Source of the DNA: Actinomycetes bacterium
Lineage (GTDB): Bacteria; Actinomycetota; Actinomycetes; Streptosporangiales; Streptosporangiaceae
Assembly: GCA_021792405.1 (NCBI GenBank)
Contig: JAJYUU010000034.1
Location: forward strand, 1-37,429
Length of the DNA stretch: 37,429 nucleotides
Direction of reading: 5' to 3'
Shown: one piece after another, positions 25,138 through 37,318 of the stretch
Position numbering within the stretch: position 1 is the first letter of the stretch
Layout of the letters: each line of letters opens with the position of its first letter
Notes under the pieces: model-generated
Databases searched by the model: none
Told to the model about the DNA's origin: nothing
What the model saw: only the letters and a program-made list of their open reading frames with translations
Position numbers and translations under genes: made by a program

Positions 25138-25797
25138 TCAGCGCAGCGCCAGCCCTGACTGCTCCGCCAGGTCCGCCAGGGTCACCCCGGCCAGCGAGCT
25201 CAGGACGACCCGGCCGGGGGCCGCCGGGACGCTGACGACACTCGGCACCGCCACCGTGCGGTAGCCCGCCGCCTCGGCCGCGGCGGTGCCGTTGAGAGAA
25301 TCCTCGAGCGCGATGCTGTACTGCGGCTCGACCCCCAGCTTGGCCGCAGCAAGCAGGTAACCCTCCGGGTCTGGCTTAGCACGGGCCACGTCGGCGCCGC
25401 AGACCATCACCCCGAACTCCCCCGCGCCCAGCCGGGACAGCACTACCTCCACTATCTCCGGCTCGGAGGAGGTCACCAGCGCGTGCGGCAGGCCCGCTTC
25501 CCGGACCTCGCCCAGCAGTTCCACCGCACCGGGAAGAACCGGCAGCGGCTGGCTCGTCAGCTCCGCGATCATCGCCTCGGTCAGCCAGCGGGCGACGACG
25601 GCCGGCCGCTCTGCCCGCGTTCCCCGGTCCAGAAGGTAGCTGACGGTGGTGTCCATCGATCCGCCTACCAGGACACCCTGGTCGGCATGCGACCAGGTCC
25701 CGCCGAGACGTGCCATCACCACGCTCTCCGCCCGGAACCACAGCGGCTCGGAGTCGACCAGCAGGCCGTCCATATCGAACATGACGGCCTGGAGCAC
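25138..25797 (-). CDS. HAD-superfamily hydrolase (beta-phosphoglucomutase/phosphatase-like)
   Basis: A 219-residue HAD enzyme that should remove phosphate from a small metabolite. Motif I is FDMDGLLVDSE (DxDG with both Asp), motif II is LVTSSEP, motif III has the Lys in RAKPDPEGYLLAA, and motif IV is ALEDSLNG. The helical cap lies at about residues 18-90. DMDGLLVDSE and KPDPE place it in the subfamily of beta-phosphoglucomutases and sugar or glycolate phosphatases; the substrate is unknown. The frame is open far upstream, but GTG 25797, with AAGGGG six bases before it, gives a normal N-terminus (MLQAVMFDMDG). A TAGGAT hexamer (25877-25882) is a possible -10. Confidence 0.88.
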   Translation of the reverse strand: MLQAVMFDMDGLLVDSEPLWFRAESVVMARLGGTWSHADQGVLVGGSMDTTVSYLLDRGTRAERPAVVARWLTEAMIAELTSQPLPVLPGAVELLGEVREAGLPHALVTSSEPEIVEVVLSRLGAGEFGVMVCGADVARAKPDPEGYLLAAAKLGVEPQYSIALEDSLNGTAAAEAAGYRTVAVPSVVSVPAAPGRVVLSSLAGVTLADLAEQSGLALR

Positions 25798-31107: not shown

Positions 31108-32625
31108 GTGGAGCATAACCAGGCAGCCGGGCAGATAGACCCGGAGTTCACCGCCTACCCGCTGGCTGAGCTTGCCGATGCCGCGCTGGCAACGGCCGCG
31201 AAACTGGGCGCGTCGCATGCCGACTTCCGGGCCGAGCGGATCAGGGGCCAGCAGATCGGCTTGTCTGACGGCAACCTGGAGACCCAGTTCGACTCCGACG
31301 ACCTGGGCCTGGCGGTCCGCGTCATCGTCGACGGCACGTGGGGCTTCGCGTCAGCGGTCGACCTGACGACCGGGGCGGCCGCACGCGCGGCCGCCGAGGC
31401 TGTCGATGTGGCCAAGGTAGCCGCGGCAATCAACACCGAGCCAATCGAGCTGGCCGACGAGCCGGCCCACGGCGAGGTGCGCTGGCTGTCGGCCTACCAG
31501 GTCGACCCGTTCGGAGTCAGCGTCAGCGACAAGATCGCGCTGCTGGCCGACTGGACTGCGCGGCTGCTCGGGGCGGCCGGGGTCAGCCACGTCGATGCCT
31601 CGCTGCTGCAGGTCAAGGAGTGCAAGTTCTACACCGACGGGGCCACTACCGCGCTGCAGCAGCGCGTCAGGGTGCACCCGCAGCTGACTGCGGTAGCCGT
31701 CGGCGCTGGCGGCCGCTTCGACACCATGCGGACGCTCGCGCCGCCAGCCGGGCGGGGTTATGAGTACCTGACCGGTACCGGCTGGGACTTCGACGCCGAG
31801 CTGGCCGAGATACCCGAACTGCTGGCCGCGAAGCTGGCTGCGCCGTCCGTCCAGGCCGGCCGGTATGACCTGGTCATCGACCCGTCTAACTTGTTCCTGA
31901 CCATTCACGAGTCGATCGGACACGCGACCGAGCTCGATCGTGCCCTGGGTTACGAGGCGGCATACGCCGGCACCTCGTTCGCCACCTTCGACAAGCTCGG
32001 CGCCCTGCAGTACGGCTCGTCGATCATGCACGTCACCGGCGACCGCACGGCAGAGCATGGCCTCGCCACCATCGGCTATGACGACGAGGGCGTGGCAGGG
32101 CAGTCGTGGGATCTGATCTCCGGCGGCGTGCTGACCGGCTATCAGCTCGACCGCCGGATCGCCAGGCTGACCGGGCTCGGCCGGTCCAACGGCTGCTCGT
32201 TCGCCGACTCCCCTGGCCACATGCCGATCCAGCGGATGGCCAACGTGTCCCTGCAGCCAGCCCCGGGCGGGCCGTCCACCAGCGAACTCATCGCAGGCGT
32301 TACTGACGGCATCTACATAGTCGGCGACAAGAGCTGGTCGATCGACATGCAGCGGTACAACTTCCAGTTCACCGGCCAGCGGTTCTTCCGGATCAAGAAC
32401 GGCCAACTGGCTGGCCAGCTCCGGGACGTGGCCTACCAGGCCACGACCACGGATTTCTGGAACGCGATGGACGCCGTCGGCGGGCCGCAGACCTACGTGC
32501 TCGGCGGCGCCTTCAACTGCGGGAAGGGCCAGCCCGGCCAGGTCGCGCCGGTCAGCCACGGCTGCCCGTCGGTAGTCATGCGCGGCATCCGGATTCTCAA
32601 CACGGTCGAGGAGGCCGGCGCATGA
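31108..32625 (+). CDS. tldD: TldD metalloprotease subunit
   Basis: TldD and TldE form a heterodimeric zinc protease that trims unfolded peptides and matures some ribosomal peptide products. This 505-residue subunit carries the active-site motif HESIGH (267-272), unique to TldD, and the conserved CSFADSPGHMPIQRM and VGDKSWSIDMQRYNFQFTGQ segments toward the C-terminus. The GTG at 31108 is preceded by no ribosome site; TAGGTT (31094-31099) ends eight bases before it, which suggests a leaderless or nearly leaderless mRNA. The stop overlaps the tldE start (ATGA). Confidence 0.93.
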   Translation: MEHNQAAGQIDPEFTAYPLAELADAALATAAKLGASHADFRAERIRGQQIGLSDGNLETQFDSDDLGLAVRVIVDGTWGFASAVDLTTGAAARAAAEAVDVAKVAAAINTEPIELADEPAHGEVRWLSAYQVDPFGVSVSDKIALLADWTARLLGAAGVSHVDASLLQVKECKFYTDGATTALQQRVRVHPQLTAVAVGAGGRFDTMRTLAPPAGRGYEYLTGTGWDFDAELAEIPELLAAKLAAPSVQAGRYDLVIDPSNLFLTIHESIGHATELDRALGYEAAYAGTSFATFDKLGALQYGSSIMHVTGDRTAEHGLATIGYDDEGVAGQSWDLISGGVLTGYQLDRRIARLTGLGRSNGCSFADSPGHMPIQRMANVSLQPAPGGPSTSELIAGVTDGIYIVGDKSWSIDMQRYNFQFTGQRFFRIKNGQLAGQLRDVAYQATTTDFWNAMDAVGGPQTYVLGGAFNCGKGQPGQVAPVSHGCPSVVMRGIRILNTVEEAGA

Positions 32626-34055
32626 GTAGCGGCCAGTCCGAGCCAGCCCAGCCCGCTTCGGCACCGGCGCCGCAGATTGCGGTCGAGCGAGCCCTGGCGG
32701 CGGCGACGTGCGACGAGTGCATTGTCATCGCGGATGAGAGCTCCTCGGCCAACCTGCGCTGGGCGGGTAACTCGCTGACCACTAACGGAGTAGCCCGCTC
32801 CCGGCAGCTCACCGTTATCGCCGTCAGCCGCAGCGGCGACGAGGCCAGGGTGGGCGTGGTGTCCAGGGCGGGCCTGCGGGAGGACCAGATCGCCGATCTC
32901 GTCGCCGAAGCTGAGCACGCGGCCGCGGATGCCTCGCCCGCCGAGGACGCTCAGCCGCTGCTCACGCCCAATGCGGCCGGCCCGCGGGCGGCCGCCTGGG
33001 ACTCCCCGCCCGCAGCCACCGAAATCGGGGTGTTCGCCGCCTTCGCCCGCGACCTCGGCGGCGCTTTCGAGGTGGCCGCCGCCGGCGGCCGGAAGCTGTA
33101 CGGCTTTGCCGAGCACCAGCTGACCTCGACCTATCTCGGGACATCCGCCGGCCTGCGGCTGCGCCACGATCAGCCGACCGGGCGGCTTGAGCTCAACGCG
33201 AAGTCGGTCGACCTGGCCTCCTCCGCCTGGGCCGGACTCGGCACCGCGGACTTCACCGACGTCGACGTCGCCGCGCTCGAGGCGGGCCTGGCCGAGCGCC
33301 TCCGCTGGGCGGAACGGCCGGTCGAGCTGCCGGCCGGCCGCTATGAGACGCTGCTGCCGCCGACCGCGCTGGCCGACCTGATGATCTACATGTACTGGTC
33401 GGCGGGCGCTAAGGATGCGCTGGACGGTCGGACGGTGTTCAGCAAGCCGGGCGGCGGCACCAGGGTCGGTGACCGGGTCGCAAGTCTGCCGCTCGCGCTG
33501 CGCAGTGACCCGGCGGCGGCGGGCTTGCAGTGCGCGCCATTCGTGATCGCGCATGCGTCCAGCCGGGAGACCTCGGTGTTCGACAACGGGCTACCGCGAG
33601 CAGGCACCGACTGGATCGCCGACGGCCAGTTGGCCGCGCTCACCCAGACCCGGCACACCGCGCAGCTGTCCGGGCTCCCGGTGACCCCGGCGATCGACAA
33701 CCTGATCATGACTGTCCCCGGCGCGACCGACTCGATGGCCGACCTGGTCAGCCGGACCAGTCGCGGCTTGCTGCTGACCTGTCTCTGGTACATCCGCGAG
33801 GTCGATCCCCAGACGCTGCTGCTCACCGGACTGACCAGGGACGGTGTTTACCTGGTCGAGAACGGCGAGGTGACCGGAGCGGTGAACAACTTCCGGTTCA
33901 ACGAGAGCCCGGTCGGCATGCTCAGCCGGATCACCGAGGCCGGCGCCACCGTGCCGACTCTGCCCCGCGAGTGGAGTGATTACTTCACCCGAGCGGCCAT
34001 GCCGCCGGTCCGGGTGGAGGGCTTCAACATGTCGTCGGTGAGCCAGGCCAGCTAG
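32622..34055 (+). CDS. tldE: TldE/PmbA metalloprotease subunit
   Basis: The non-catalytic partner of TldD, 477 residues, lacking the HExxxH motif. It has the PmbA-type features AFARDLGGAFEVAA, LPAGRYETLLPPTALADLM, RVGDRVASLPLAL, FDNGLPRAGTDWIADG, VPGATDSMADLV and the C-terminal FRFNESPVGMLSRITEAG. The ATG overlaps the tldD stop by four bases, so the two chains are made in step. I see no peptide-product precursor beside the pair, so a general proteolytic role is more likely here. The gene ends 18 bases before a large palindrome. Confidence 0.92.
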   Translation: MSSGQSEPAQPASAPAPQIAVERALAAATCDECIVIADESSSANLRWAGNSLTTNGVARSRQLTVIAVSRSGDEARVGVVSRAGLREDQIADLVAEAEHAAADASPAEDAQPLLTPNAAGPRAAAWDSPPAATEIGVFAAFARDLGGAFEVAAAGGRKLYGFAEHQLTSTYLGTSAGLRLRHDQPTGRLELNAKSVDLASSAWAGLGTADFTDVDVAALEAGLAERLRWAERPVELPAGRYETLLPPTALADLMIYMYWSAGAKDALDGRTVFSKPGGGTRVGDRVASLPLALRSDPAAAGLQCAPFVIAHASSRETSVFDNGLPRAGTDWIADGQLAALTQTRHTAQLSGLPVTPAIDNLIMTVPGATDSMADLVSRTSRGLLLTCLWYIREVDPQTLLLTGLTRDGVYLVENGEVTGAVNNFRFNESPVGMLSRITEAGATVPTLPREWSDYFTRAAMPPVRVEGFNMSSVSQAS

Positions 34056-34654: not shown

Positions 34655-35002
34655 GTGAAGTCAACCCTAGGACCCCGTCGCGACGAGGCGCACCTGGTCA
34701 CCCAGGCTCGTCCCGGGCTGTCAGCGGACATCGCCCACCGCGAGCGCCGCTACCTGATCATGATGGGCATCCGTACGGTGTGCTTCATCGCCGCCATCCT
34801 GATGTACGTCAATCACCTAGGCTGGCTGACCGCCATTCCCGCCGTCGGCGCGCTGGTCATCCCTTATTTCGCCGTGGTGCTCGCCAACGGCGGCCGGGAG
34901 CCGACGGCAAACAGGACCTTCCGGCAGTACGAGCCGAACAGCCCCGCGACCTACCGGCCGCCGACCCGGCCGGACAACCAGCAGGTGCCGCCTAGCAACT
35001 GA
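34655..35002 (+). CDS. DUF3099 membrane protein
   Basis: A 115-residue protein of the actinobacterial DUF3099 family, function unknown. The core is LSADIAHRERRYLIMMGIRTVCFIAA, then two membrane helices (about 36-53 and 57-75) and the family end AVVLANGGREP, followed by a Pro/Asn-rich tail. The charged N-terminus and tail should be cytosolic. GTG 34655 is the only sensible start: an in-frame TAA lies at 34643-34645. No partner genes are evident nearby. Confidence 0.85.
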   Translation: MKSTLGPRRDEAHLVTQARPGLSADIAHRERRYLIMMGIRTVCFIAAILMYVNHLGWLTAIPAVGALVIPYFAVVLANGGREPTANRTFRQYEPNSPATYRPPTRPDNQQVPPSN

Positions 35003-35133
35003 CCGCGAACCGGGCAGAACGTGATGCATTCGGGAGCGTCCCGGCATTTCGTCTGATCAGGTCGTGAAGATGGTGCCAAAGTAGGACCGTAGTACGAGTC
35101 GGCCAGGATGGCGAGATTACCTCTAATCCGGTC

Positions 35134-35163
35134 TTGACGCACTAGGGGCATCTTCGGTGTAAC
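35134..35163 (+). promoter_or_regulatory. Promoter of the 6C-like small RNA
   Basis: TTGACG (35134-35139), 18 bases, then TGTAAC (35158-35163); TAACAT at 35160-35165 is an alternative -10. Transcription would start at about 35170-35172, directly before the first hairpin of the RNA. Confidence 0.55.
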
Positions 35164-35170
35164 ATTCGTA

Positions 35171-35284
35171 GCGGTGCTCTGGTCCCCCGCTGGGGCACCA
35201 ACTGCCGGCGTTCCGGGCCCCCGTCGGAGCGCCGATGAATGCGACGCCGGGTGGTTTGCCCCCGTAGCCACCCGGCGTCGCTCT
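35171..35284 (+). ncRNA. 6C-type small RNA (three hairpins with CCCCC loops)
   Basis: The 349-base gap between the DUF3099 gene and the ABC exporter has no ORF but holds three hairpins in a row, each with CCCCC in its loop. Hairpin 1 pairs 35173-35180 with 35192-35199, with two or three G-U pairs. Hairpin 2 pairs 35206-35215 with 35225-35234, with one wobble pair. Hairpin 3 pairs 35241-35254 with 35268-35281, 14 perfect pairs. A good promoter ends just upstream. C-rich loops on successive hairpins define the actinobacterial 6C RNA (the Mtb relative is B11), which binds G-rich ribosome sites of mRNAs. Hairpin 3 could also serve as terminator, for this RNA and for the facing exporter operon. 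The exact ends are inferred. Confidence 0.7.
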
Positions 35285-35351
35285 ATGCTGGCAGGCCGCC
35301 GACCTTCCTCAGATGGAATCCGGAAGGCGCACCCGCGGTCGGTGGCCGAAG

Positions 35352-36272
35352 TTACTCGGTCTTGCTGAACTCGGCGATGGCCACGGACATCATGCCCAGT
35401 CCCATGACCGCCACGATGCCGAGTGACAGCCACAGCGGTACTGCCCAGCCGTCCCAGGTGATGCCCGGCGCCAGGTGAGTGTTCAGGATCGCCGAGATCT
35501 GCGCCGAGACGTTCAGATGGCTGAAAACCAGGTGCCGCATCGGGCCGACCACATAGGTCAGCGGGTCGAGCCTGGTCAGCACTGTCAGCCAGGCAGGCAG
35601 GCCAGTAAGCGGGTACAGCGCGCCGGACAGGAAGAACAGCGGCATGACCAGCATCTGGGTCAGCGCCATGAATGCCTGGAACTGCCTGATCCTGGCGGCC
35701 ATCATCACGCCGAACGCGGTCAGCGTGAACGACAGCAATAGCATCATGCCGATCAGGCTCATGATCAGCACCGGGTTGTACGGCACGTGCGCGAACCAGG
35801 CCAGGCACAGGAAGATCACGCCCTGGAAGGTGGCGATGGTCGCGCCGCCAAGGCACTTGCCGACGACTATCGCACCGCGGCTGACTGGAGCCACCAGGAT
35901 CTCCCGCAGGAAGCCGAACTCCCGGTCCCAGACAATCGACCCAGCCGAGAAGATGGCCGTGAACAGCACAGACATCGCCAGCACGCCGGGATAGATGAAC
36001 GTCTTGAAGTCGAAAGTGCTGGATTGCGGCAGGTTGCCGCCGGCCAGCGTGGACAGTCCGGTGCCGAGAATGAACAAGAACAGGAACGGCTGCACCAGCG
36101 AGGTAATAGCCCGCAGGCGGTCGGTGCGGAACCTGATGAGTTCGCGCCGCCACACGATGCTGACCGCCCGCAGGTCGTGCCGCAGTCCCCGGTCGGGCGT
36201 CGTGACCCTGATCCGGTCGATGACGGCGCCGGCGCTGCTGACCTCAACCGGGTCAGTGGTCTTCATAGCCAT
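35352..36272 (-). CDS. ABC-2 type transporter permease (DrrB-like)
   Basis: Membrane subunit of an ABC exporter, 306 residues. A cytosolic N-terminus precedes the conserved WRRELIRFRTDRLRAITSLVQPFLFLFILG segment, and there are about six membrane helices. The helix pair around SIVWDREFGFLREILVAPVSR is the ABC-2 motif, and PLFFLSGALYPLTGLP with LDPLTYVVGPMRHL is typical of DrrB/NodJ-type proteins. The ATG at 36272 starts two bases after the ATPase stop; the ATG at 36266 is a possible alternative. The substrate cannot be told; lipids, drugs or polysaccharide precursors are all known for the group. Confidence 0.9.
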   Translation of the reverse strand: MAMKTTDPVEVSSAGAVIDRIRVTTPDRGLRHDLRAVSIVWRRELIRFRTDRLRAITSLVQPFLFLFILGTGLSTLAGGNLPQSSTFDFKTFIYPGVLAMSVLFTAIFSAGSIVWDREFGFLREILVAPVSRGAIVVGKCLGGATIATFQGVIFLCLAWFAHVPYNPVLIMSLIGMMLLLSFTLTAFGVMMAARIRQFQAFMALTQMLVMPLFFLSGALYPLTGLPAWLTVLTRLDPLTYVVGPMRHLVFSHLNVSAQISAILNTHLAPGITWDGWAVPLWLSLGIVAVMGLGMMSVAIAEFSKTE

Positions 36273-36274
36273 CG

Positions 36275-37318
36275 TTACCGCCTGCCTCCCGACCGCATCC
36301 TGTGCATATTGCGCATGAACTCGTTGCCCGCGCCGCCCTCGGCGTCGCGGATCGTCGTCCCGGTATAGGACATGAAGACGTCGTCCAGCGACGGCCTGGA
36401 CACGCTGACAGACCTGATCGGAACGGCGAACTCGCTGAACAGCCGCGGTACGAACTGCTCACCTGAGGCGACCGAGAAGGTCACGGCGCCCTCGTGCATG
36501 GCCGCCTCGAGTCCGAATTTCGCCGCGAGTTCACTGATGGCGGCCTGGTCGTCGGCCGTCTGGATCTGCACTCGGTCCTTGCCGATGCTGGCCTTGAGCG
36601 CCTCGGGCGTATCGATCGCCACAATCTTGCCGTGGTCAATGATCGCGATCCGGTCGCAATGCTCCGCCTCGTCCATGTAGTGAGTGGTGAGGAAGATGGT
36701 GATGTCCTCGCGTGTCTTCAGGTCGTTGATGTACGTCCAGATCGACGACCTGGTCTGCGGGTCGAGCCCGACCGTCGGCTCGTCCAGGAACAGCACGTGC
36801 GGCGCGTGCAGCAGCCCCCTGGCTATCTCAAGCCTTCGCTGCATGCCACCCGAGTAGGTGCTGACCAGGCTGTCCTTGCGGTCCCAGAGCCCGACCATGT
36901 CCATGACCTGGCGCATCCTGGGCAGCACAACGCCCTTCGGCACCCCGTAAAGCTCGGCATGGAACCGCAGGTTCTGCTCGGCGGTCAGGTAACTATCCAG
37001 CGTGGTGTCCTGGAACACCAGGCCGATGTTGCGGCGTACCGCATCGCGCTCAGTGGCCGAGTCATGGCCGGCTACTCGCGCGGTACCCGCAGTCGCATCC
37101 GCGAGCGTGCACAAGATCTTTATCGTGGTCGACTTACCGGCCCCATTCGGGCCGAGGAAGCCGAACGTCTCACCGCGGTTGACGGTGAAGTCGATGCCTC
37201 GCACCGCTTCCACGGCACCGTACCGCTTGACCAGGCCGGAGACCGATATTACGGTCTCCGGCCCAGTGCCGTCGCTGACCTGCTCCGGGCCCGGCTTAGT
37301 GCCTGCCTGCGCTGCCAT
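36275..37318 (-). CDS. ABC exporter ATP-binding protein (DrrA-like)
   Basis: ATPase of the exporter, 347 residues. Walker A is GPNGAGKSTT, Q-loop GLVFQDTTLDSYLTAEQNL, signature YSGGMQRRLEIARG, Walker B VLFLDEPTVGLDP and switch LTTHYMDEAEHCD. The C-terminal 90 residues form the DrrA-type extension with RPSLDDVFMSYTG, the motif that ends this subfamily. The ATG at 37318 lies eight bases after GGAGG. It is two bases from the permease, so one operon. The 111 bases upstream to the window edge have no clear promoter. Confidence 0.93.
   Translation of the reverse strand: MAAQAGTKPGPEQVSDGTGPETVISVSGLVKRYGAVEAVRGIDFTVNRGETFGFLGPNGAGKSTTIKILCTLADATAGTARVAGHDSATERDAVRRNIGLVFQDTTLDSYLTAEQNLRFHAELYGVPKGVVLPRMRQVMDMVGLWDRKDSLVSTYSGGMQRRLEIARGLLHAPHVLFLDEPTVGLDPQTRSSIWTYINDLKTREDITIFLTTHYMDEAEHCDRIAIIDHGKIVAIDTPEALKASIGKDRVQIQTADDQAAISELAAKFGLEAAMHEGAVTFSVASGEQFVPRLFSEFAVPIRSVSVSRPSLDDVFMSYTGTTIRDAEGGAGNEFMRNMHRMRSGGRR

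Follow-up and report, generated by a model that had tools for sequence, protein, structure and literature searches.

Sequence-based description of a predicted small RNA with three CCCCC-loop hairpins in Streptosporangiaceae and of its relatives in other Actinomycetes

The locus and its predicted transcript

The window, meaning the whole stretch of 37,429 nucleotides that was analysed, contains near its right end a short intergenic region between a small DUF3099 gene and a convergent pair of ABC exporter genes. The features of this region are the following:

34655 to 35002, plus strand: small DUF3099 gene (PF11298, 91.8 bits), by synteny the usual upstream neighbour
35112 to 35127, plus strand: conserved upstream element of the GAGATC-N4/5-TCGTRAC type, from the alignment of 85 sequences
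35134 to 35139, plus strand: putative -35 element TTGACG, part of a near-invariant TCTTGAC in 85 aligned sequences
35160 to 35165, plus strand: putative -10 element TAACAT; GTG and then TANNNT are found in 85/85 aligned sequences
35171 to 35288, plus strand: predicted small RNA of about 115 nt, from folds and models, the 5' end placed from the -10 element and the 3' end from hairpin 3
35173 to 35199, plus strand: hairpin 1, 11 bp in the fold, loop CCCCC (UCCCCCG)
35206 to 35234, plus strand: hairpin 2, 11 bp in the fold, loop GCCCCCG
35241 to 35281, plus strand: hairpin 3, terminator-like, 16 bp in the fold and a further 2 bp past a one-base bulge, tip GCCCCCGUA
35352 to 36272, minus strand: DrrB-like ABC-2 permease gene, convergent, a neighbour only at those loci that resemble the window most
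36275 to 37318, minus strand: DrrA-like ABC ATPase gene (TIGR01188, 337.8 bits)

Genes for TldD and PmbA-like proteins lie 5' of DUF3099 (window 31108-34055, plus strand), and many relatives likewise have PmbA on the 5' side of the RNA.

A preliminary description of this DNA had proposed a small RNA preceded by a promoter-like pair and folding into three hairpins, with CCCCC exposed in every loop. The three hairpins and their loops were recovered by the fold and by a hairpin scan, the stems being slightly longer than the 8, 10 and 14 bp or so first given, and the idea of an sRNA-like gene gains from the conserved promoter, the three stems and the covariation reported below. In hairpin 3 the CCCCC stands at the tip with its first C paired in the fold model. 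The stretch 35171-35288 folds at -73.3 kcal/mol against -53.1 (sd 3.9) in shuffles (z -5.22), and 0/200 shuffles were as good. A triplet of CCCCC-loop hairpins (stem of at least 8 bp, all within 130 nt) was identified once on the plus strand of the window, never on the minus strand and in none of 200 order-1 simulations. The plus strand contains four CCCCC-loop hairpins with stems of at least 8 bp, three of them belonging to the RNA locus; the fourth is a lone hairpin at 25332, the chance expectation being about 1.5 per 37-kb strand. Two models of the RNA, R1 and R2, score the window copy at 115.4 and 80.5 bits.

The putative promoter at 35134-35165 is called on conservation. A plain sigma-70 scan of the window with spacers of 16-18 reported no promoter, because its limit was 18 and the spacer in the window is 20. 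The pattern TTGA[CT]N-20-TANNNT has this spacer of 20 in 84/85 aligned sequences and one of 21 in the last. From the TTGACG/TGTAAC pair initially proposed, TTGACG was thus kept, and TGTAAC (spacer 18) was replaced by the better -10 element TAACAT. Hairpin 1 begins 7 nt past this -10. Hairpin 3 is followed in the window by CUCUAUG, not a good U-tract, and several relatives have UUUUU at this place. The upstream GAGATC-N4/5-TCGTRAC block forms with TCTTGAC an 11-nt direct-repeat-like pattern, and the element at 35112-35127 is a possible activator site ahead of the -35. The constant 20-nt spacer together with the conserved upstream block suggests that promoters of the window type are under activator control.

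Putative promoters of other types were identified in relatives outside the host family. In the Streptomyces-type group, 79/80 sequences carry instead an extended -10 (TGACATACT, TGCCATACT, TGTCATACT or TGTAATACT), which ends 6 nt ahead of hairpin 1 in 73/79. More generally, a -10 of the form TG-N-[CAT]AT[AG][ACT]T, loosely placed, is present in 89/90 sequences outside the host-family type. In 48/80 Streptomyces-type sequences, locus L145 being an example, a CTCAAGAAAAGCTCAGA-like element lies 5' of the RNA; its two CTCA units are spaced by 11 nt, and it is a possible response-regulator site.

Conservation, distribution and genomic address

Searching 149 genomes with positions 35130-35300 as DNA query gave matches in 92; the host family, Streptosporangiaceae, accounts for 85 of these, out of 90 genomes (own genome counted). 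Alignment A1 comprises 83 distinct sequences, 82 from this family and one (L064) from a sister family; it excludes two duplicate sequences, four distant loci and the copy of genome G019, which is split. It contains 39 base pairs with 99.4% of cells paired, and 21 of these pairs show compensatory (double) changes, against a mean of 8.8 in shuffles, where 0/500 reach 21, and 1-5 in slid structures. Such changes were identified in 8/10 model pairs of hairpin 1, 5/11 of hairpin 2 and 8/18 of hairpin 3, so that covariation in the third stem, which the preliminary description had put forward as a check, was present.

The loops change far less. UCCCCCG is kept in 81/83 sequences of A1, GCCCCCG in 82/83 and UGCCCCCGUA in 83/83, and three CCCCCG[TC] motifs per RNA occur in 82/83. 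One natural loop variant, L083 (genome G029), has CCCC for CCCCC in loops 1 and 2 and an intact loop 3. Mean information over 85 sequences is 1.53, 1.69 and 1.84 bits in hairpins 1, 2 and 3, the last being the most conserved of the three, and drops to 0.21 bits in the 30 nt at 35291-35320. From the covariation, loop and information data we infer selection on the stems and on the exposed loop letters that fades right after hairpin 3. Model R2 also gave no match in the Streptosporangiaceae genomes G005, G018, G036, G054 and G060 and in the three genomes of family f3 searched, some of them incomplete. Since nearly complete relatives such as G018 (99%) and G091 (100%) are among the genomes without it, the RNA is dispensable.

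The wider distribution was surveyed in 393 Actinomycetes genomes for which a completeness of at least 90% was requested. R1 matched 62 of them at E <= 0.001, comprising 45/45 Streptosporangiaceae in the draw and 17 others; the matched RNAs outside the family have mostly two hairpins, one similar to hairpin 1 and the other corresponding to hairpin 3. R2 was built from 34 sequences of many families and contains 21 pairs, 13 with double changes; part of its sequences had been found by R1 and match R2 by construction. On the same genomes R2 matched 143, with one match each, and membership was counted from 50 bits up, a level reached by 131 matches, the other 12 falling below. The 131 include all 45 Streptosporangiaceae and all 43 genomes of family f20, which its sequences suggest to be Streptomyces-like. 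A draw across the phylum gave matches in 13/296 genomes, all within the same class. Among the matches listed, the hairpin-3 pattern was identified in named genomes of Streptomyces, Kitasatospora, Streptacidiphilus, Embleya, Jiangella, Nocardiopsis, Microbispora, Nonomuraea and further genera. The first hairpin of the 90 sequences that are not of the host-family type carries CCCCCGT in 86, only CCCCC in one and neither in three, two of which are the same locus. Some Streptomyces-type hairpin 3 loops have six C.

Weak R2 matches of about 40-47 bits were found at G104:C18:150285, G106:C144:5168, G145:C85:4183, G181:C13:5976 and G209:C154:17843, and weak matches to hairpin 3 only at G120:C8:111475, G191:C62:2703 and G102:C221:8712. 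The first five are either chance matches or terminators elsewhere in the genome that are related and likewise tipped by CCCCC.

Regarding the extra hairpin of the host family, hairpins 1 and 2 of the window form a 28-nt direct repeat, 71% identical, with the copies 34 nt apart. Over 83 sequences the mean identity is 0.64 between hairpins 1 and 2, 0.53 between 1 and 3 and 0.55 between 2 and 3, compared with 0.55 for hairpin 1 against shuffled hairpin 2. Compared with the first hairpin of the Streptomyces form, hairpin 1 has an identity of 0.76 and hairpin 2 one of 0.64. A tandem duplication is a possible and the simplest account of hairpins 1 and 2, the margin over the shuffled control being modest.

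The most frequent neighbour of the RNA is the DUF3099 gene. It lies upstream on the same strand in 67/90 loci within 1.2 kb and at about 1.5 kb in one more; 20 loci are without DUF3099 by tblastn, the Nocardiopsis-type ones among them, and two were too short. In a second locus set, which overlaps the first in some genomes and from which L142 was dropped (the RNA not being placeable there), the same arrangement was found in 125/138, with 9 loci lacking the gene and 4 too short. Outside Streptosporangiaceae and family f20, 32 of 37 RNAs among the matches listed adjoin a same-strand DUF3099; the five exceptions among them (in G104, G106, G145, G181 and G209) have scores of 40-47 bits throughout, and in G145 DUF3099 was matched at a second place besides the one that does not adjoin the RNA. 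The gene itself is far commoner than the RNA, since its Pfam model matches 378/393 class genomes, and 7 of the 45 Streptosporangiaceae contain the RNA without a DUF3099 match. One Streptomyces-type locus, with names assigned mostly by eye from translations, has the order moaA (convergent), RNA, DUF3099, small membrane protein, TyrS, PmbA and TldD. The Streptomyces form probably lies next to moaA (SCO1821).

The other neighbour is the exporter, on which the RNA had been said to converge, with possible termination of that operon. The convergent DrrB-like gene is indeed present in the window, and in 90 loci surveyed with flanks of 1.5-2 kb in most cases and less in some, DrrB was identified downstream in 19, all of which rank among the 22 closest in similarity to the window. 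The link is therefore only local, and a functional connection with the DrrAB exporter was rejected. Judged from gene order, the exporter neighbour is local and the DUF3099 neighbour old.

The usual position 3' of DUF3099, the terminator-like hairpin 3 and the convergent genes that come next in the window and in one Streptomyces-type locus would agree with a purely cis-acting element, an elaborate terminator or 3' end for the transcripts of DUF3099 and of a convergent gene that gives no regulatory RNA product. Such an element would not need its own conserved promoter at a near-fixed distance from hairpin 1, its loops are conserved far beyond the needs of a terminator, and most of the genomes with DUF3099 lack the RNA. 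The promoter and the near-invariance of the loops make a mere terminator unlikely, and the locus is very probably an independent small RNA gene.

Relation to known RNA families

The whole window gave no match at the gathering cut-off against Rfam 15. The preliminary description had assigned the RNA to the 6C type (RF01066), with which it shares a plan: both are small actinobacterial RNAs with hairpins carrying C-rich loops, as is B11, the 6C sRNA of mycobacteria. Nevertheless, the 6C model, whose cut-off is 47 bits, was not listed for 34900-35450 at E values up to 10. The genuine 6C of this genome was identified on another contig, at G000:C223:38987-39063 on the minus strand (locus L001) with 58.8 bits, so two distinct C-loop RNAs coexist in the genome, and neither R1 nor R2 detects the genuine copy. 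The consensus of 6C has two hairpins with six-C loops, whereas the window RNA has three hairpins with runs of five C followed by GU or GC; the two-hairpin plan is the one seen outside the host family. For the missing model match, the separate 6C locus and the blindness of R1 and R2 to 6C, membership was rejected, and a divergent member of that family is a most improbable reading of the locus.

The only Rfam entry with a small E value for the RNA stretch was ncS035 (RF02870, Burkholderia sRNA 35), with 25.8 bits and E 6e-4 against a cut-off of 79. It has three hairpins and a loop with CCCCC, and the resemblance is probably a convergence of composition and shape. A single Streptomyces-type homologue scanned up to E 1 gave only the same entry, below threshold (15.4 bits, E 0.19). 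At E values up to 10 the window RNA gave, in addition, Ms1 / 6S-like RNA (RF02566) with 11.8 bits against a cut-off of 162 and two further, unrelated entries. Identity with ncS035 or Ms1 was rejected, the scores being far under the cut-offs.

Several small RNAs of Streptomyces were also compared. In the available part of its description, scr5239 of Streptomyces coelicolor has 159 nt, five stem-loops and the core motif GCUGCGG (PMC4365011). It resembles the window RNA in being a conserved Streptomyces sRNA with base-pairing action; identity was rejected, as the window RNA has three hairpins and no GCUGCGG. The groups scr5583/sar2652/svr5279 and scr1434/sar6912/svr1031 are presented, in the accessible portion of their source, as conserved, highly expressed Streptomyces sRNAs with C-rich loops (PMC3765725); they are named there for other flanking genes and the likeness is one of description only. 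The survey of Panek 2008 gives coordinates and no sequences in the part of the article at hand (PMC2422843). In open-access literature text, no description of the RNA was found by loop or promoter strings, by DUF3099 with sRNA or by moaA with Streptomyces sRNA, and scr1819-scr1822 were not named as RNAs in the open-access literature. It is quite possible that the Streptomyces form is already listed, unnamed, in supplementary tables. Rfam appears to lack this family.

Proposed mode of action and significance

The best explanation as a whole is, with fair probability, an independent, trans-acting, 6C-like small RNA gene. Transcription would start at the foot of hairpin 1 and end at the terminator-like hairpin 3. 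The CCCCCGU loops may then be equivalent seeds, any of which could pair with G-rich sites (core ACGGGGG) of mRNAs at the start of translation or close to it, an antisense action modelled on the 6C/B11 sRNA of mycobacteria. According to the available part of the source, B11 represses translation by loop pairing at ribosome-binding sites, and in M. abscessus either of its C-rich loops alone suffices for repression there (PMC10470900). That a short RNA exposes redundant C-rich loops, nearly without variation, suggests G-rich sites as pairing partners. The additional hairpin in Streptosporangiaceae may have arisen from hairpin 1 by tandem duplication, and it would let the RNA bind with higher avidity or reach more targets. 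Taken separately, action in trans as an antisense regulator is given slightly better than even chances; the loops are conserved beyond the needs of G-U tolerant pairing, which was counted against it.

Target sites, whose prediction as G-rich Shine-Dalgarno sequences was another check put forward at the start, were searched crudely with a single seed, GACGGGGGA, the complement of the loop UCCCCCGUC, placed 2-12 nt before ATG starts only in 13 genomes, with the composition-matched 9-mer GCAGGGGGA as control. Distinct sites were counted (73 match rows are 70 sites, and 49 control rows are 48). The seed was found before ATG in 70/566 of its genomic occurrences (12.4%) and the control in 48/410 (11.7%), without significant enrichment over the 13 genomes (Fisher p 0.77), so this check lent the targets no significant support. 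The nine genomes with the RNA gave 50/352 for the seed and 30/275 for the control (p 0.23), the expected direction without significance, and the four genomes without it 20/214 and 18/135 (p 0.29). Reading 29 of the seed sites (30 rows), related genes were seen to recur only in near relatives, with the exception of a pair of Clp-type ATPases with 49% identity from two families. The recurring proteins in close relatives are presumably squalene-desaturase-like, DnaE2-like and lipoprotein-like. This test would not pick up a regulator that has only a few targets.

The absence of significant enrichment at antisense sites would also agree with a protein sponge. CsrB and RsmZ RNAs titrate CsrA through repeated GGA loops. 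The window RNA has in common with them the repetition of an identical loop motif and differs in its C-rich loops, GGA being absent; its repeated CCCCCGU loops might titrate an RNA-binding protein, with C-preferring proteins such as Rho, a cold-shock protein or a KH-type protein as candidates. Identical loop cores in every hairpin, kept while the stems change, and a hairpin added in one lineage, which may be a duplicate, are in line with titration. Two or three sites are nevertheless few for a sponge, and base pairing is how B11/6C acts with its two C-rich loops (PMC10470900). A sponge is on this balance a rather unlikely explanation, though one to be kept in view. Its full form, in which an uncatalogued RNA family of Actinomycetes would be a multivalent protein decoy, a C-loop counterpart of CsrB whose Streptosporangiaceae version was enlarged by hairpin duplication, is viewed with considerable doubt.

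Under either the preferred antisense reading or the sponge, the RNA can be traced across many families of the class with its structure, its loops and usually its genomic address kept. As it is kept in family f20 and in many other families, it is testable in model Streptomyces. Alignments A1 and A3 could serve to propose a new Rfam family. If protein binding is true, the RNA would be a new kind of decoy; if 6C-like regulation is true, two distinct RNA families of these bacteria would share the C-loop principle.
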